A stretch of DNA of 39,631 bases from NCBI GenBank assembly GCA_005223125.1, contig NJBH01000035.1, positions 1-39,631 on the forward strand, written 5' to 3'. Positions 3,887 through 37,501 of the stretch are shown here, piece by piece. The DNA comes from Promethearchaeota archaeon Loki_b32 (GTDB lineage: Archaea > Asgardarchaeota > Lokiarchaeia > Sigyniarchaeales > SOKP01). The position numbers and the translations under genes were made by a program. A model generated the notes under the pieces. That model saw only the letters and a list, made by a program, of their open reading frames with translations, searched no databases and was not told the origin of the DNA. Positions within the stretch are counted from its first letter, which is position 1. The number at the start of each line of letters is the position of its first letter.

Positions 3887-3939
3887 TTACTAATCTTAAT
3901 ATACCTTATAGGCCGGTGTGGCTTAGCTGGTTATAAAGC

Positions 3940-3967
3940 ATTTGAGATAATCATATGTTTAATAGGC
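3940..3967 (+). other. Intron 1 of tRNA-Met, near position 25/26
   Basis: About 28 extra nt separate D-stem AAGC (3936-3939) from G26 and anticodon stem CCAGA. Because GC is repeated at both ends, the exact border can slide by up to two bases. AAGCAT (3936-3941) can pair with ATGTTT (3955-3960), so the D-stem strand may pair with the intron before splicing. No strict BHB was found by hand. Confidence 0.6.
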
Positions 3968-3980
3968 GCCAGACTCATAA

Positions 3981-4013
3981 TCCTACTGAAAAAATGGGTC
4001 AGACTGGATGTAT
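3981..4013 (+). other. Canonical 37/38 BHB intron of tRNA-Met
   Basis: A 33-nt insert follows A37. CAT of the anticodon pairs with ATG (4008-4010). The bulges are AAT (3979-3981) and ATT (4012-4014). The inner helix is CC/GG plus CTGA/TCAG. Cutting after the second base of each bulge joins CTCATAA to TCTGG exactly. The central helix has one T·T mismatch. Confidence 0.82.
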
Positions 4014-4318
4014 TCTGGAGGTTCGAGGGCTCGAATCCCTCCACCGGCACTCTTTTTACATTAAAAAAATTATATTAAAATTGGAATTAGTTTATTCTGA
4101 AATTCCCAGATTTAAGTATACAATAGAGACTTTCCTTTCAGGAATAGATGTTATGCCAATGGTTGGTTTAATGAAGCCTGACTTTTAAAATCCCCATACT
4201 TTTTTGATTTATAGTATTTATATTTTAAATTCACTTCTTTTTTAATTTGAAGTGTTTGATATTATTTAGATTAAGAACCTAAAAGGTTTTTTATAGCAAT
4301 ATCTTAAATAAAATTGTT

Positions 4319-26278: not shown

Positions 26279-26501
26279 ATTGTAATTATAATTATTGAAT
26301 TTTATTCTTTTTGCTTTTTAAATTATATAGGAGTATATATAATATTTGGATATTAGAGCTAATTACAAATAAAAACTATACTCTCAATACTTAAAAAACA
26401 TAAAACTTTTCTTTTGCAAATTTTTATATTACAAGAGTTTTATAGAATTAATAAGATTTATTTATAATTATTTGAATATCTAAAAGCGAGGATTGCTATA
26501 T

Positions 26502-27116
26502 ATGCCAAGTCGTCGAGGAGATGGGACTCTCGTGTTTAAAATCTGTTTTTATGGTCCAAGTTTAGGTGGAAAGACCACAGCATTGGACTGGGTTTATAAA
26601 CGAGAAGGATTAGCCACGGGAGATATGCAACAGATACAAGATCCCACTGGTCGAACACTCTTTTTCGATCGCGTCGTTGCAAGGGTTTCAAATGTAGTAT
26701 TTCAAGTTTACACTGTTGCTGGTCAGCGGAGACATAAATTCCAACGTCAAACAGTTCTTAAAGGTACAGATGCTGTTATATTTACTTGGGATTCATTAAT
26801 AGACCAGTGGGGAGAGAACATATGGAGTTTAAAAGAATTGCTCCGATTCTATGGCGATAGACTAATCCCAACTGCAGCTTTTGAACCTCCTCAAGTACCC
26901 TTAACGGCACTAGCAAATAAAAGAGACCTAGAGGATATTATAGAAATCTCTAAAATACGACAAGCACTCGATACCGCTAAACTCAATCATGTGTTAATAT
27001 ACGAGACTATAGCGATTCAAGGAGTGAACGTAAAGAGGGCTTTTGTTTACGCTGCTCGCCAAGCAGTATTAAACCATTACAAGAAACTTTCAGGGAAAAC
27101 AATGGAAAGTGCTTAA
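26502..27116 (+). CDS. MglA-like small GTPase
   Basis: A Ras-superfamily GTPase of about 204 residues. G1 is 'FYGPSLGGKTT', G2 'DPTGRTLFFD', G3 'VYTVAGQRRHKF', G4 'ANKRDLED' and G5-like 'ETIAIQG'. The G3 form T-V-A-G-Q, lacking the usual Asp before A-G, and the P-loop G-P-S-L-G-G-K-T point to the MglA group rather than to Ras, Rab or Arf. MglA works with Roadblock proteins in polarity and motility. A TTG nine bases upstream (26493) would also open the frame, but the ATG at 26502 sits 10 bases after GAGG (26488-26491) and is preferred. No lipid-attachment Cys at the C-terminus. Confidence 0.88.
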   Translation: MPSRRGDGTLVFKICFYGPSLGGKTTALDWVYKREGLATGDMQQIQDPTGRTLFFDRVVARVSNVVFQVYTVAGQRRHKFQRQTVLKGTDAVIFTWDSLIDQWGENIWSLKELLRFYGDRLIPTAAFEPPQVPLTALANKRDLEDIIEISKIRQALDTAKLNHVLIYETIAIQGVNVKRAFVYAARQAVLNHYKKLSGKTMESA

Positions 27117-28121: not shown

Positions 28122-28664
28122 TTATAAATAGATTATTTCAGGCTCAACTTTTTCTTGAGATATTCTAAGGTATCCATAAGAGTTAATACTAGTAAATTTT
28201 TTATCCATAGGGGTACCTGGACTGATGTACAATTTACCATTCCTCCATACTTCATTATAAGGGCGGTGAACATGCCCAAAAATTATAATATCATATTTAG
28301 ATAAATCATGACTTCTATTCAATCGTTTGATTATGATATTGGGTCCACCCGTTCCGTGTGTTATAAAAATATTATGTCCAAATAAATTCAGCTCTATAGT
28401 TTCTGGTAACTCTTGTTTTATTTTAGATTCATCCATATTACCTTTAATTCCTATAACTTTCTCTTTACCAAAAATATCTTGAAGGTACTCATATACTTTA
28501 AAGCTAGTAAAATCCCCTAGATGAACTAAGCAATCAATATTTTTATCTTTAAAGTCTTCTATAATGAGTTGTGGGATTTCTGGTTGTCTTGAGGGAATAT
28601 GAGTATCGCCAATAAGTCCGATCAATAGTTCTTTCTTATTCGTTGTTATCATTTTTTTCCGCAT
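28122..28664 (-). CDS. Metallophosphoesterase, YfcE/MJ0936 family
   Basis: A 180-residue calcineurin-like phosphoesterase. All metal ligands are visible: 'GLIGDTHIPSR', 'LVHLGDFTS', 'IGIKGNMDE', 'ITHGTGG' and 'IFGHVHRPYNE', with 'ISPGTP' at the end. The family hydrolyses phosphodiesters with two metal ions. The first ATG overlaps the end of the preceding gene by 29 bases. A second ATG four codons on (28652) shortens the overlap and is equally plausible. The overlap indicates translational coupling with the upstream amidotransferase-like gene. Confidence 0.9.
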   Translation of the reverse strand: MRKKMITTNKKELLIGLIGDTHIPSRQPEIPQLIIEDFKDKNIDCLVHLGDFTSFKVYEYLQDIFGKEKVIGIKGNMDESKIKQELPETIELNLFGHNIFITHGTGGPNIIIKRLNRSHDLSKYDIIIFGHVHRPYNEVWRNGKLYISPGTPMDKKFTSINSYGYLRISQEKVEPEIIYL

Positions 28665-29568
28665 CTTTCAATCTTGTTTTAGTTACTCTTAAGGCAAAAT
28701 TAATTACTTCCTCTAGATTTGCCCATTTTCCTTTATTTATCATTTCCTTAATCCAATAAAATAGATCTTGGCTAATGGCAACAGTAGTAAGTATTGGTTT
28801 TAATGCTTGTTGTTCATCAGATTTTGCTTTATTTAACAACCAAGAAATCATATTGGTTACTAATTTAAAGTTATCAGCAGCTCTTATTCCATAAGATTTT
28901 TTCAAACTTGAAAATATTGATAAATTTCCTATCACAATTACTTTTCCAGGACCATAGTGTGTAGCGCCAATGATTGGAAGCTGTTGTTCTGATTTGTCCT
29001 GCCACTCATTTCCATTAAAATATCTATGCCATGAAGTGGTTTCAGAAGAAAATGCTAAACTATTCACATTAATATTTTCATCTTCGATTGATTTATCTAT
29101 TACTAATGAGCATCCATTTGAGTGAATAATTTGATAAATATCTCTTGTAATAAAGTGGTTTCTAAAATCCTTTATTATTGGATGAGCATTATCTTTTGAG
29201 AAATTCTTATTATCAAATAATATATCTGAATTAAAAACTATCCCAAAGTTTTTAGTTAATTCAGAGAGATTATTTTTATTTTCATAATCACCACCACCAT
29301 CATTAATTACAAGAAGACTTCCTCCATCTTTAGCATACTTAACTAAAGCACTAATTTCATCGATATCAAAATCAGGACCAAGATGGGGTACTCCAATTAT
29401 AAAGAGATCATATTTATTTAGCTTTTCATAAGTAAAGCCCGCTTCAATTTTCCCCAATTTAAAAGCTGAATCGAAAAGATATTGAATAAAATCAGTAAAT
29501 GCATTATTTTCAATAGTTAATTTATTATTATGAGAATGATCAAAACCAATTGCGATTTTCTTTGTCAT
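28636..29568 (-). CDS. GATase1/GIFT-like domain with C-terminal RHH-type segment
   Basis: A 310-residue protein. Residues 1-about 245 follow the class I glutamine-amidotransferase-like/GIFT (IFT52, GldG, DUF4350) layout: 'IAIGFDHSHNN', 'LFIIGVPHLGPDFDIDEISALVKYAKDGGSLLVI' and 'GKVIVIGNLSIF'. No catalytic Cys-His pair is apparent at the usual elbow. Residues about 262-300 look like a ribbon-helix-helix unit ('LTTVAISQDLFYWIKEMI', 'WANLEEVINFALRV'), which could bind DNA or dimerise. It is the first gene of a minus-strand group with the phosphoesterase, which it overlaps. Confidence 0.6.
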   Translation of the reverse strand: MTKKIAIGFDHSHNNKLTIENNAFTDFIQYLFDSAFKLGKIEAGFTYEKLNKYDLFIIGVPHLGPDFDIDEISALVKYAKDGGSLLVINDGGGDYENKNNLSELTKNFGIVFNSDILFDNKNFSKDNAHPIIKDFRNHFITRDIYQIIHSNGCSLVIDKSIEDENINVNSLAFSSETTSWHRYFNGNEWQDKSEQQLPIIGATHYGPGKVIVIGNLSIFSSLKKSYGIRAADNFKLVTNMISWLLNKAKSDEQQALKPILTTVAISQDLFYWIKEMINKGKWANLEEVINFALRVTKTRLKDAEKNDNNE

Positions 29569-32569: not shown

Positions 32570-35008
32570 TTAAGTTTCTTGTTCACATTTCCCTATTGCT
32601 ACTACGAAATCTTTTTCATATAATTTGATAACTCGAACTCCTTTTGCTTTTCGATGTGTTATTCTTATTGAATCCACTGGAACCCTTATTACTTGCCCTT
32701 GTTCTGTTCCAACTAATAAATCCATGTGTTTTGCTATTTTTATTGCTATCACTTCATCATTTTTTGCTTTATTTAATGTGATATTCCTTACACCTTTAGC
32801 GGACCTACCAGTTTTACGATATTCTTTAACGTAAGTTCTTTGACCATACCCATTTTGAGTGAGTGTTAATATTATCTCATCATTAGATACAAGGAGACTA
32901 TCAATTACTTCATCATTTTCTCTTAGTTCTGCTCCTTTTACTCCCATAGAAGTACGGCCTAATTCTCTTAATTCAGATTCATCAAATCTAACAGCATAGC
33001 CTAATTTAGTAGCTATAAAAATATCTTGGAGTTCATTGGAGAGTCTTTTAACACTTATTAATGCATCATCTGCCCTAATCCTTTGAGCTCTTACCCCAGT
33101 ACTTCTAAATTTTGAGAATAGTTTTAAAGGAGTTTTTTTAATAATCCCATTCTTTGTCGTCATAATAAGCATTTCATTAGTATTGAAGTTATTAATTGGT
33201 ATCATAGCTGATATATTTTCGCCTGATTGCAATGGTATAAAATTAATAATTGGTTTTCCTCGAGCAGTTCGTTTTTGTGGTGGAATATTAAAACATCTAA
33301 TCGAATAAACCCTCCCTTTTGAAGTAAATATTAAAATTGTATCATGAGTTGTACAAACAAATAAATCAGTAATAAAATCCTCTTCACGTATAGTCATACC
33401 TCTTTTCCCGCGACCGCCTCGTCTTTGAGCGTGGTATTCTTCCAAAGATATTCTTTTGATGTATTGATTTTTAGTAAAAATTACAATGGTGGTTTCTTTT
33501 TTGATTAAATCTATGTTTTCAATTTCTTTTATTTCATAGTGTTCAACCATTTTAATTTCAGTCTTTCTATCATCTCCGTACTTTTTGTTTAATTCGATTA
33601 AATCGTTTTTAATTATATCTAAACGAACCTGTTTTTCTTTCAGAATTTTATTATAATCTTCAATACTAGTATGTAATGATTTTTGTTCATCTACTAACTT
33701 TTGTTGTTCTAAATTGGTTAATCGAGATAGAGGCATACTTAAAATAGATTGAACTTGAATATCACTTAATTTATAAGTTACTTTTAACTTATTTTTAGCT
33801 TCTTTAGTGTCTTTCGAACTTTTGATTATATTCACTACATTATCAATATCATTTAACGCAATTAAAAGACCTTCAACTCTATGAAGTCGATCTTTTGCCT
33901 TTTTTTGGAGATATTCGGTTCTTTTTTGAATTATAACTAATCGATGTTCAATATATTCATTAATAATTTCTTTTAGATTGAGAATTTTTGGTTGCTTACC
34001 ATCATTAACCAGAACTAGATTAGTTATATTAAATGTTGTTAGAAGTCTAGTCCTTTTAAAGAGAATATTTTTTATTATAACAGGTTGAGCTTTTTTAGAT
34101 AAATCTAATACAATGCGCATTCCTTTTCTATCTGATTCATCACGCAAATCTCTAATATCCTTAATTACTCCATCTTTTATTAGTTTAGCGATAGATTCAA
34201 TTAAAGTTGTTTTATTAACTAAATAGGGAATTTCAGTAATGATTAAACTAGTTTTGTTTCCTTTTATTTCAGTTTCAATCCTACCACTATTATTAATAGT
34301 TCCATTCCCTGTATGATATGCATTGTAGATTCCATTTGTGTCAGTAATAATTCCTCCTGTTGGAAAATCAGGACCTTTTATGATTTCCATTAATTCGTCT
34401 ATGGAAATTTCAGAATCTTCTATAGTTGCGACAATCGCATTACAAACTTCTGTTAAATTATGTGGGGCCATGGATGTTGCCATTCCCACAGCAATCCCTT
34501 TAGTACCATTTAATAAAATATTCGGAAGTTTTGCTGGTAAACATAATGGTTCAGAGGTACTATTATCAAAATTCGGTTGAAACTCTACAGTCTCTTTATC
34601 AATATCTCCAATCAATTCATTTGAGATTTGAGATAATCTTGCTTCAGTATACCTATAGGCTGCGGGAGGATCTCCATCTATAGATCCGAAATTTCCCTGT
34701 GGATGGATTAAAGGATATCTTAATGAGAAATCTTGTCCCATTCTAACAAGTGCATTATAAACAGACATATCGCCGTGAGGATGATAGTTTCCTAATACTT
34801 GGCCTACAATTTTAGCACACTTGACGTGTGAACTATTCCAATTCCAATTACTTTCAGCCATAGCGTAAATAATACGTCTGTGAACGGGTTTCAGACCGTC
34901 CCTGACATCTGGAATGGCTCGTCCTACGACTACGCTCATAGCATAATCGATGTAGCTGCTTTGCATTTCATCTTTTAATAAAATCTCTTCTATTTGTTCT
35001 GAAGTCAA
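32570..35008 (-). CDS. gyrA: DNA gyrase subunit A
   Basis: An 812-residue GyrA, bacterial in type and normal in length. 'MSVVVGRAIPDVRDGLKPVH' is near the start. The catalytic Tyr120 is in 'AAYRYTEARLS'. The GyrA box 'QRRGGRGKRG' lies near residue 532, which separates gyrase from topoisomerase IV. A six-bladed C-terminal wrapping domain follows. With GyrB it introduces negative supercoils using ATP. At the quinolone-pocket positions, Ser83 and Asp87 of E. coli are Met and Asn ('HPHGDMSVYNALVRM'). It lies 48 bases downstream of gyrB, so they form one unit. Gyrase in archaea derives from bacterial transfer. Its last 49 bases recur at 31539-31587. Confidence 0.97.
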   Translation of the reverse strand: MTSEQIEEILLKDEMQSSYIDYAMSVVVGRAIPDVRDGLKPVHRRIIYAMAESNWNWNSSHVKCAKIVGQVLGNYHPHGDMSVYNALVRMGQDFSLRYPLIHPQGNFGSIDGDPPAAYRYTEARLSQISNELIGDIDKETVEFQPNFDNSTSEPLCLPAKLPNILLNGTKGIAVGMATSMAPHNLTEVCNAIVATIEDSEISIDELMEIIKGPDFPTGGIITDTNGIYNAYHTGNGTINNSGRIETEIKGNKTSLIITEIPYLVNKTTLIESIAKLIKDGVIKDIRDLRDESDRKGMRIVLDLSKKAQPVIIKNILFKRTRLLTTFNITNLVLVNDGKQPKILNLKEIINEYIEHRLVIIQKRTEYLQKKAKDRLHRVEGLLIALNDIDNVVNIIKSSKDTKEAKNKLKVTYKLSDIQVQSILSMPLSRLTNLEQQKLVDEQKSLHTSIEDYNKILKEKQVRLDIIKNDLIELNKKYGDDRKTEIKMVEHYEIKEIENIDLIKKETTIVIFTKNQYIKRISLEEYHAQRRGGRGKRGMTIREEDFITDLFVCTTHDTILIFTSKGRVYSIRCFNIPPQKRTARGKPIINFIPLQSGENISAMIPINNFNTNEMLIMTTKNGIIKKTPLKLFSKFRSTGVRAQRIRADDALISVKRLSNELQDIFIATKLGYAVRFDESELRELGRTSMGVKGAELRENDEVIDSLLVSNDEIILTLTQNGYGQRTYVKEYRKTGRSAKGVRNITLNKAKNDEVIAIKIAKHMDLLVGTEQGQVIRVPVDSIRITHRKAKGVRVIKLYEKDFVVAIGKCEQET
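32572..32620 (-). repeat. gyrA 3'-end copy of the direct repeat
   Basis: The functional terminus of gyrA; 45 of 49 bases are identical to 31539-31587 in the same orientation. Confidence 0.88.
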
Positions 35009-35056: not shown

Positions 35057-37122
35057 TTAAATATCTAATGTTTTAACTTCATCAAAATTACTAATAATGA
35101 ACTTTTTACGGGCTTTTACTTCTTTACCCATTAATTTTGTAAAGATTAAATCATTTTCGAGATAGTTTTCATAAGTTACTTTTTTCAATCTTCTTGATTC
35201 TTTTTTCATTGTAGTATCATATAGTTCATCAGAGTTCATCTCCCCAAGGCCTTTATAGCGCTGAGTTTTGATAGAATCCAGATTCTTTAAATTGTATTTT
35301 TCTTTGATACTTTTAAGTAAGTTCTCTTTCTGATTATCTGAATAAACATATTCTTTTGTTTTTTTATAAGAAACTTTATATAAGGGAGGTACAGCAATAT
35401 ATAAGTGCCCCTCATCTATTATTGGACGTAAATACCTAAAAAAGAAAGTAAGTAATAAGGTTTCGATATGAAATCCATCAATGTCTGCGTCGCACATGAT
35501 TATGACTTTATGATATCGTAGTTTACTTAAATTGAAGTTTTCTTCGGTCTCTTCCCCATTCTCTTCTATTTCACCATTTGTTCCATTCATTTGACTGGAA
35601 TCTTGAAATCCAACTCCCAAAGCTTTTATAATAGCTTGAATTTCGTTGTTTTGTAATACTTTATCTATTCTAGCTTTTTCAACATTGAGAATTTTGCCTC
35701 TAATGGGAAGGATTGCTTGATAAGTTCTATCTCTACCTTGTTTAGCAGGGCCGCCTGCTGAATCACCTTCTACTATAAAAATCTCTACTTTTTCAGGATT
35801 ATTTGATGAACAATCGGCTAGTTTTCCTGGCATCCTAGCACTATCTAATACTGATTTTCTCCGAATTAATAATCTCGCTTTTTGAGCGGCTTCTCTCGCT
35901 ATTTTTGCATTAATAGTTTTTAATACAATCTTTTTAGCGGTCTGTGGATTCTCTTCTAGATATTGAGTTAACCTGTTTGTAACAATTTGGCTTATAATCT
36001 GTCTAATTTCAGGATTACCTAACTTAATTTTTGTCTGACTTTCAAATTGAGGATCAGGAAGTTTAACGGAGAGGACAGCTGATAACCCTTCTCTTGTATC
36101 AGCTCCACTTAAGACGTGTCCTTTATACTTTTTTTCCATATAATTTTCTACATATGAATTAAAAATTCTTGTTAGAGCAGATTTAAATCCAGTGAGATGT
36201 ACTCCGCCTTCAATAGTGTTGATCGTATTTGCATATGTTAAAATATTTGTTTGGTATCCTTGAGTATATTGCATTGAAAGGTCCAGAAAAACATCTGATC
36301 CATCCGCATCTTTACCTGAATCACTTATAAATATGATATCATTATGAAGCGGTTGCCTATCTTTATTCAAATACGAGACAAATTCTTTAATGCCACCCTC
36401 ATAGTGAAATTCTTCCTTTTCATCATTGAATTTATCATTAAGTTCAAACCTAGTATGAGGTGTAAGAAAGGCTAGTTCACGCATTCTATTACTAATGGTA
36501 TAGGCATTAAAAAGAGGTTCATTTGGTATGAATTCAAAAATCTCTTTATCTGGGTAAAAGTGTATCTTAGTATATGACTCCTTTGCGTTAGATTCTACTA
36601 CTGTTGGCTCTGAAGCTTTTTTCCCCTTTGAAAATTTCTGTGTGTAGTTTTTCCCGTCTCGACAAATTTCTACATTCATCCAATCTGTTAAAGCATTAAC
36701 AACTGATAATCCAACACCATGTAAACCACCTGAAATTTTATAACTTTTATTGTCAAACTTACCACCAGAATGTAAATATTCCATAATTACTTCAACAGCA
36801 GGTTTCTTAAATTCTGGGTGTATATCAATTGGAATCCCGCGTCCATTATCGAATACCTGAACTGTGTTATCGTTATAAAGTGTAACTTTTATCTCATCTG
36901 CATAACCTCCCATAGCTTCGTCAACAGAATTATCCAAAACTTCGAAAATAAGGTGGTGAAGCCCTTTCTTCCCTTGATCCCCAATATACATTGCTGGGCG
37001 TCGACGCTAACGACTCAACGCGAATCGCGTATATTATTCAAGATTTACTATAATGAGTTTACGCCTTCGAGCCCTTTTAATACCTGAATATCCTCTGCAT
37101 CATACACATTCCTATCAGCCAT
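35057..37122 (-). CDS. gyrB: DNA gyrase subunit B, split by a 53-nt intron
   Basis: Exon 1 (37122-37060) encodes 21 residues, 'MADRNVYDAEDIQVLKGLEG' plus V. Exon 2 (37006-35057) continues 'RRRPAMYIGDQGKKGLHHLI' to a 670-residue GyrB. The joined 'LKGLEGV-RRRPAMYIGD' matches the highly conserved GyrB N-terminus. The GHKL ATPase motifs 'EVLDNSVDEAMGG', 'FDNGRGIP' and 'SGGLHGVGLSVVNAL' follow. The TOPRIM 'VEGDSAGGPAKQGRDR', 'IMCDADIDGFHI' and 'QRYKGLGEMN' come next. Exon 1 uses ATG with GGA eight bases upstream. Starting instead at the Met of MYIGD would delete the N-terminal arm that helps bind ATP and dimerise. gyrA follows after 48 bases. The two-exon reading is preferred because both exon ends match homology exactly. 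Confidence 0.92.
37007..37059 (-). other. BHB-type intron in gyrB mRNA
   Basis: In the transcript the insert and its borders fold as a bulge-helix-bulge. The outer helix is UCGA (37070-37067) with UCGA (37004-37001), next to one A·G mismatch. The central 4 bp are GGCG (37065-37062) with CGUU (37012-37009). The bulges are UAA (37061-37059) and AGC (37008-37006). The inner helix is ACUCA (37058-37054) with UGAGU (37017-37013). Cutting after the second base of each bulge releases exactly 53 nt and restores the GyrB frame. An ACGCG/CGCGU hairpin lies inside. The insert is not a multiple of three and contains stops. Confidence 0.85.
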
Positions 37123-37501
37123 AAGATCCAAACCAAAAATTTTTGTAAAAGCAAATTTATCAAATCTAAAATGAATTTGTGTGATAATTTACAAAATTAC
37201 TAAGTAACTAGTGGTAATGAAAACATTTAAATGTATCTGCACTTTTTTAACGTTCAAAAGACCGACTTCTCTTTAAAAATACACCCAGCGCTAATGTCCT
37301 TTAATTAAAGAGTAATATCAATTGAATTGAGCTAAAGATTAAGAGTTCTCTACATAGAAAGCCCTAATTTTTAACTAAAAAATTTATACATAAAAACAAA
37401 AGATTACTAATTCTCTTGAATCTCCTCAACTAATATAGACAAAATCATTATTGTACTACACTAAACAAGTAGACAAGCAAGAATAGAACAATATGAGTTG
37501 T
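37123..37501. other. Intergenic region upstream of gyrB
   Basis: About 380 AT-rich bases between gyrB and the zinc-binding gene. It should contain the gyrB promoter. No gene or stable RNA was seen. Confidence 0.4.

Follow-up and report, generated by a model that had tools for sequence, protein, structure and literature searches.

The pre-mRNA intron of the cbf5 gene of Thermoproteota was reportedly described by Watanabe in 2002. According to later work, this intron of the bulge-helix-bulge (BHB) type was gained and lost among Thermoproteota, has a relaxed motif and is linked to a hetero-oligomeric form of the tRNA-splicing endonuclease EndA, and BHB predictions in other protein genes are mentioned there as unconfirmed (Yokobori 2009, PMC2738675). 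A paper from 2020 names, besides its own mRNA substrate, only cbf5 as a further archaeal BHB intron outside tRNA and rRNA (PMC7714728). Further related work is found in PMC4090602, PMC6125680, PMC12397907, PMC3491384 and PMC12558985. Here we describe an insert in the DNA gyrase gene gyrB on a contig of 39,631 nucleotides (nt) from the Lokiarchaeota genome Promethearchaeota archaeon Loki_b32 (NJBH01000035.1), the whole of which is called the window below. The junction between GLEGV and RRRPAMYIGD is split by 53 nt (37059-37007, - strand), which we consider very probably to be a small archaeal pre-mRNA BHB intron with a relaxed motif, cut by the tRNA-splicing endonuclease, in the sole gyrB of the genome. 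No report of a BHB intron in gyrB was found in the titles and abstract openings of the open-licence papers listed, which is no proof of novelty.

The interrupted gyrB gene and its predicted splice motif

The gene was divided into the following parts:

37060-37122, - strand: gyrB exon 1, 21 codons MADRNVYDAEDIQVLKGLEGV, last codons GGC GTA
37007-37059, - strand: 53-nt insert containing in-frame stops, putative BHB intron, relatives with inserts of 30-53 nt at this site
35057-37006, - strand: gyrB exon 2, 649 codons and a stop, first codons CGT CGA CGC (RRR)

Exon 1 starts with the ATG at 37122-37120 and runs through 37060; read on into the insert, its frame gives NSL followed by two consecutive stops. 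Exon 2 begins with RRRPAMYIGD at 37006, immediately after an in-frame TAG, and stays open until the stop codon ending at 35057. Its Pfam matches (DNA_gyraseB, HATPase_c, Toprim and DNA_gyraseB_C) identify the product as gyrase B, and it is the single gyrB match in the genome (4.13 Mb, 71 contigs, 95.5% estimated completeness).

A gyrB gene was found in 55 of the 65 genomes of the window's family and its 5' end was readable in 52; in three (G036, G077 and G082) the matches begin inside the gene and the 5' end is therefore not readable. Inserts of 30-53 nt at the identical codon junction are present in nine of the 52 genomes, below called carriers, and the remaining 43 genes are uninterrupted. 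In the window the elements of the motif are as follows:

37062-37065, - strand: central helix, 5' side, GGCG in exon 1, GGCG in all nine carriers
37009-37012, - strand: central helix, 3' side, CGUU in the intron, two G-U pairs with GGCG
37059-37061, - strand: bulge 1, UAA, predicted cut after UA, between 37060 and 37059
37006-37008, - strand: bulge 2, AGC, predicted cut after AG, between 37007 and 37006, outer helix not directly closing
37054-37058, - strand: inner helix, 5' side, ACUCA
37013-37017, - strand: inner helix, 3' side, UGAGU
37067-37074, - strand: outer helix, 5' side, GGGCUCGA in exon 1
36996-37004, - strand: outer helix, 3' side, UCGACGCCC in exon 2, with C37000 bulged

The nine inserts are unlike in sequence and keep the BHB pairing, i.e. 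GGCG with CGYY, an inner stem and a covarying outer helix between the exons. The motif fits the carriers when exon 1 is paired with the 3' end of the intron. In the assigned register, the central helix of four base pairs is paired in 34 of 36 cells over the nine carriers; its 3' strand is CGUU, CGCC, CGCU or CGUC in seven carriers, with one mismatch each in G003 (CGAC) and G027 (AGCC). The insert ends with CGYY followed by AA or AG in the same seven, with CGACAA in G003 and with AGCCAA in G027. Bulge 1 is flanked by the last pair of the central helix, formed in 8/9 carriers, and by an A-U pair of the inner helix, formed in 9/9; it is UAA in seven carriers and UAU in two, the first insert base being A or U, respectively. 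Bulge 2 is, in the assigned register, AAA in seven carriers and AGC in two. The first four pairs of the inner helix are standard in 32 of 36 cells, and the helix is weak in G062, G030 and G018.

A preliminary description of the locus had given 21 codons ending in GLEGV, 53 nt with stops and then RRRPAMYIGD, and re-reading the sequence showed coordinates and insert length to be correct. It had further placed the canonical cuts at the exon borders expected from protein homology, which was confirmed: cuts two nt into each bulge join GTA to AGA, AGG or CGT and restore Val-Arg, as in uninterrupted genes, in all nine carriers. Of the proposed outer, central and inner helices with two 3-nt bulges, the central and inner helices and the 5' bulge are found as described, but the outer helix does not reach up to the 3' bulge.

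Comparison of gyrB genes with and without the insert

Inserts of 53 nt are carried by G000 (the genome of the window), G018, G004 and G003, and shorter ones by G080 (33 nt), G027 (31 nt) and G030, G022 and G062 (30 nt). By identical inserts and coordinates, five carriers were matched to records: G004 to CP070831.1 (a chromosome record), G003 to JAGXNO010000015.1, G027 to RDOA01000027.1, G022 to SDNY01000035.1 and G080 to JAUWNA010000043.1. There is one gyrB match per carrier genome. All nine inserts have an in-frame stop, at insert codon 2-5, and since four of them have a length divisible by three, frameshifting cannot rescue those four. The exon-2 frame remains open upstream into the insert in G018 and G003.

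Comparing gyrB 5' ends of related Asgard genomes had been proposed as a check in the preliminary description, and gave the insert in 9/52 within the family and 0/13 outside. These 13, out of 18 further genomes of the class, are the ones with a gyrB match, and all read uninterrupted from GLEGV or a variant into R-x-RP; five have Ile for Val, with frames continuous in translation. This absence would fit an insertion after gyrB, a gene of putative bacterial origin, had entered the lineage. Among 40 gyrB loci in named genomes, the 29 closest are Lokiarchaeota or Lokiarchaeia assemblies and the other 11 (ten bacteria and one Micrarchaeota) have best-segment identities of 42-49%. The gyrB gene of one family member, G065 (L115, 218-3583, - strand), is a single frame of 1121 amino acids with an intein near the Toprim domain (Pfam Intein_splicing, 2.4e-20) and has no insert at the BHB site.

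In the alignment of the introns, A1, those of 53 nt resemble the short ones plus one segment:

37016-37035, - strand: extra 20-nt segment with the hairpin ACGCGAUUCGCGU at 37030-37018, in the four 53-nt introns and not in the five of 30-33 nt, A1 columns 54-73

Additionally, an apical AUAAAUCAU-like stretch is common to the introns of most carriers (G000, G004 and G003 deviate). Because of this shared architecture and apex, a common origin of the nine introns is probable.

Exon 1 ends in GGCGTA in all nine carriers as compared with 4/43 family genes lacking the insert (Fisher p = 1.9e-7). Among the last 15 exon-1 codons of the carriers 13 vary, ten of these only synonymously, and the invariant two are GGC GTA, where the 5' strand of the central helix and the first two bases of bulge 1 lie. 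The exon-exon duplex forming the outer helix has a median energy of -13.9 kcal/mol in carriers and -5.2 in uninterrupted genes. In the window the value is -13.2 kcal/mol (p = 0.007 against synonymous-codon shuffles), and p was below 0.05 against such shuffles in all nine carriers versus 6/43 uninterrupted genes. For the uninterrupted genes taken together the shuffle p is 0.03; this weak excess could stem from introns that were once present and then lost. In permutations, the pairing of exon 1 is better with the exon 2 of the same carrier than with that of another (p = 6.5e-4), and the inner stem pairs better within its own intron than across carriers (p = 4.5e-4).

A structure of 20 pairs was placed on A1, where 84.4% of the cells are paired; covariation was 0.271 versus 0.179, none of 500 shuffles being equally high, and pairing falls to 33-45% when the partner is slid by 1-3 columns. 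Covariance of the BHB had been another check named beforehand, and in the nine carriers covariation is above that of the shuffles and pairing above that of the slid versions. The earlier claim of a BHB-type intron with these borders thereby gains strong comparative support from eight further carriers and their covarying pairing.

An RNA model, R1, built from the window and the eight other carriers, matches the window insert with E = 1.5e-13. It was searched in the 65 family genomes with 62 candidates scored per genome and strict filters, and 38 genomes had a single match each. Nine of these are the carriers, in 28 the match coincides by its coordinates with a gyrB site lacking the insert, and the one in G006 is weak. 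The latter (contig 7, 3976-4018, - strand, E = 0.04) lies in a genome without any gyrB match. With a model made from gyrB and strict filters, the search would overlook introns of other genes that do not resemble this one. In the window's genome, the TruB/Cbf5 homologue is a single open frame of 355 amino acids.

Splicing machinery and rival explanations

The window's genome contains an RtcB gene (it is the only carrier genome checked for RtcB) and two genes with the EndA family PF01974, L106 and L107. L106 (1165-1773, + strand; EndA alpha, the catalytic subunit) has its best match in 3p1z (2.4e-35), which we take to be the EndA of A. pernix. The two align gap-free through GYYGQPLDVEKPR / RFFGSPLGISKPR with a conserved Lys; this segment is presumably the Crenarchaea-specific loop of A. 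pernix and the residue its K44. At the position where 3p1z has His and 3ajv has Ala, L106 has His, and the aligned Tyr and Lys are also present. L107 (EndA beta; best match 1a79, 7.9e-24) keeps the aligned Tyr and Lys and has Ser at the His position. For the triad positions, we assume those of M. jannaschii EndA. The enzyme of this genome is most likely of the (alpha beta)2 form, and the loop-like segment with its Lys is possibly a shared basis for a wide substrate range. According to a review, (alpha beta)2 and epsilon2 enzymes are efficient on introns with relaxed motifs, the breadth of the A. pernix enzyme comes from a loop with a conserved Lys, and the (alpha beta)2 enzyme of M. kandleri without such a loop is more constrained (PMC6379350). 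In the family, PF01974 was found in 64 of 65 genomes (two matches in 52, three in one and one in 11), and seven of the nine carriers, including the window's genome, have two EndA genes.

The tRNA scan of the window's genome, in which 150 of 330 first-look candidates were scored, gave 21 Rfam hits. Six of these are 102-138 nt long and therefore probably contain introns. The number of hits is low despite the estimated completeness of 95.5%; the Rfam model may fail on many tRNA genes because of heavy interruption. Within the window ARAGORN detected no tRNA and Rfam two, one of which is:

3912-4049, + strand: tRNA gene with CAU anticodon by inspection, Rfam RF00005 40.7 bits, two apparent introns

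The apparent introns, one in the D arm and one in the anticodon loop, are stretches of 32 and 36 residues that the Rfam alignment skips; the splicing system proposed for gyrB would thus act on a tRNA of the window as well. In three Asgard genomes, 92-95% of the tRNA genes are given as intron-bearing (PMC11291895).

In the folded transcript, GGCG at the end of exon 1 would pair with the intron's 3' end, and bases at both borders would stay unpaired. The two-gene EndA would then cleave after 37060 and after 37007, and RtcB would ligate the exons to GLEGV-RRRPAMYIGD in a GyrB of 670 residues. Unspliced, translation would end after 24 codons with a peptide of 24 residues. We infer cleavage and ligation, as well as the need for both.

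Several points weigh against a BHB intron. In a strict hBHBh' motif the outer helix would directly adjoin a 3' bulge of 3 nt, which is not the case here. An A.G mismatch lies between the outer and central helices of the window, in addition to the one bulged C, and in G030 three nt face the 3' bulge and four lie between central and outer helices. With its 3' bulge left unclosed by the outer helix, the motif is, judged from the sequences, relaxed and not a strict hBHBh'. The window insert folds no better than shuffles (z = -0.84; 37 of 200 fold as well), so that the case beyond chance rests on the eight other carriers. In folds with the bulges held unpaired and the central pairs permitted but not enforced, the window lies 2.1 kcal/mol above its free minimum with three of the four central pairs; the range for G000, G004 and G003 is 2.1-3.3 kcal/mol, and G003 is then without the central helix. 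In the free minimum the central helix is formed with the first inner pairs open in G030 and G062, and without the inner helix in G018. The free fold of G027 has three central pairs and an enlarged bulge, and only in G022 and G080 does the free minimum contain the central helix, the 3-nt 5' bulge and the inner stem together. The RNAalifold consensus of a MAFFT alignment shows the central helix, the outer one in part and the inner one not at all, with a covariation term of +0.12. Since exon 1 does not vary there, every change in the central helix affects one strand only. Moreover, the carriers are interrelated, which makes the p values optimistic and lets the shuffles overstate independence. Finally, with both proteins used as queries, only a beta-like EndA was found in G030 and only an alpha-like one in G062, for which incompleteness of the assemblies (92% and 71% complete) is a plausible explanation.

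GyrB might instead start internally at the ATG at 36991 (MYIGD), from which an open frame exists, with no splicing and with the 21 upstream codons as a relic or short upstream frame. This is very unlikely, since exon 1 is kept coding in nine diverged carriers (13/15 codons vary, 10 only synonymously) with fixed border codons, the structure covaries across carriers, and all 56 uninterrupted genes (43 in the family, 13 outside) retain the exon-1 segment in frame. T4 gene 60 is reportedly a topoisomerase subunit gene with translational bypass, and the similarly sized gap near the gene start with secondary structure within it would suit ribosomes hopping over 30-53 nt in the same way. Bypassing, in T4 gene 60 as in the mitochondrial byp elements, requires matching take-off and landing codons, but the take-off codon is GTA in 9/9 carriers and the triplet before exon 2 is TAG, CAA or TAA, a match in 0/9. 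With the conserved parts being those of a BHB, including the exon-exon helix, and with EndA genes and apparently intron-bearing tRNAs present, we regard hopping as extremely improbable.

An assembly artefact, a sequencing error or a pseudogene might be thought of in an assembly of 71 contigs; such an origin is next to inconceivable for an insert that recurs at one site in nine genomes, of which five correspond to different named assemblies, with a downstream frame intact for 649 codons in the only gyrB match of the genome. The BHB intron may also have been selected as an on/off control of gyrase and be spliced only under some conditions. In all nine carriers unspliced mRNA would meet the in-frame stop at insert codon 2-5, and the only gyrB match of the genome is affected, yet 43 of 52 relatives without the intron argue against an essential switch and we find this role improbable. 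Group I and group II introns were ruled out, as the inserts have only 30-53 nt and no Rfam match up to E = 5 was found at 36800-37300, and an intein was considered and rejected as explanation of the insert. The preferred reading is still a BHB intron with a relaxed motif.

Probable recombination of the 5' segment and relation to known introns

On an exon-2 protein tree of 53 rows (the nine carriers, 40 of the 43 uninterrupted family genes and four outgroup rows), the intron needs at least eight changes. Close pairs, defined by an identity of the exon-2 body of at least 0.84, were taken among 49 family genes. Where only one member has the intron (11 pairs), identity between 27 and 170 nt upstream of the end of exon 1 is no more than 0.50-0.64, as compared with a median of 0.94 in 26 uninterrupted pairs. 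The difference between upstream and body identity does not overlap between the two kinds of pairs (U = 0, p = 1e-6), a p value limited by the non-independence of the pairs, which form about four groups. The sole carrier-carrier pair, G030/G062, also has a low upstream identity of 0.69, so that, by the pair measure alone, a fast-diverging 5' region in carriers could also account for the values. Over exon-2 nt 22-60 the difference is weaker (p = 0.026); identity there is low in the pairs of G000, G022 and G003 and 0.90-0.97 in those of G080.

The borders of the divergent tract vary between pairs. For G080/G065 the identity is 0.85 at 120-180 nt upstream, 0.95 beyond 180 nt, and 0.95 from exon-2 nt 120. 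For G022/G061 it is 0.75-0.92 beyond 420 nt upstream and at least 0.85 from exon-2 nt 60. In G000/G002, exon 2 starts with 0.63 over 60 nt and continues at 0.88-1.0; in the 600 nt upstream no recovery is seen, and identity also decays there in the uninterrupted pair G002/G001.

Separate trees were made for the body (exon 2 from nt 151) and the 5' segment (without its last 21 nt), using 27 rows from two genera. The body tree contains G012(G001(G002,G000)) with every branch starred, and rejects a clade of G000, G018 and G004 (AU, approximately unbiased, p = 3.7e-6). The 5' tree places these three together (96/93) and rejects G000 with G002 (p = 1.15e-4). G000 is nested in the body tree within three intron-less levels, the members of which group together in the 5' tree (91/97). 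The number of intron changes drops from six on the body tree to two on the 5' tree (bootstrap ranges 5-6 and 2-4). As these trees indicate, intron presence tracks the promoter and exon-1 segment and not the gyrB body, implying that the intron and its flanks recombine between lineages and that the intron is not a simple vertical feature. Recombination with a lineage like G018 or G004 probably brought promoter, exon 1 and intron into G000; in other lineages, intron loss by the same route is equally possible. A more speculative thought, which we hold to be unlikely, is that promoter, exon 1 and intron of gyrB form a transmissible unit, which has spread between Lokiarchaeota species via short recombination tracts around the site of the intron, as in intron co-conversion, driven either by a homing-like break at the empty site (with the enzyme encoded elsewhere) or by selected splicing control of gyrase.

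Directly downstream of gyrB lies an uninterrupted open reading frame:

32570-35008, - strand: gyrA, Pfam DNA_topoisoIV 2.3e-161 and DNA_gyraseA_C 5.3e-70

Near the two gyrase genes, the window has an open reading frame with an IFT52 GIFT domain at 28636-29568 (- strand; Pfam 4.7e-11), a domain named for an intraflagellar transport protein. A small GTPase-like frame is found at 26493-27116 (+ strand; Pfam Arf 1.5e-7, Ras 1.8e-6).

If the intron is real, it would be the second conserved BHB intron in a coding region, located in Asgard archaea and in the gene of a central DNA enzyme, and gyrase would depend on the tRNA-splicing machinery. It would mean spliceosome-free splicing of a protein gene in relatives of the archaeal ancestor of eukaryotes, and an archaeal pre-mRNA intron that can be exchanged with its flanks between species. 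Furthermore, gene callers could miss GyrB N-termini in Lokiarchaeota.

Like the cbf5 intron, the gyrB intron would be a short in-frame BHB intron of an often relaxed type, patchy among relatives and linked to a hetero-oligomeric EndA (PMC2738675); it differs in being found in a DNA gyrase gene and in the Asgard phylum. For cbf5, presence in a common ancestor with lineage losses is described (PMC2738675), whereas the gyrB intron appears to track a recombining 5' segment. Archaeal tRNA introns with relaxed BHB motifs (hBH, HBh'; several per tRNA) are of the same EndA-cut type (PMC6379350, PMC11291895), but the host RNA of the gyrB intron is an mRNA, without a tRNA fold to aid recognition. The BHB of HVO_1309 in Haloferax is, as the gyrB intron would be, an mRNA substrate of archaeal EndA; it is located in the 5' untranslated region (PMC7714728), whereas the putative gyrB intron lies within the coding frame.

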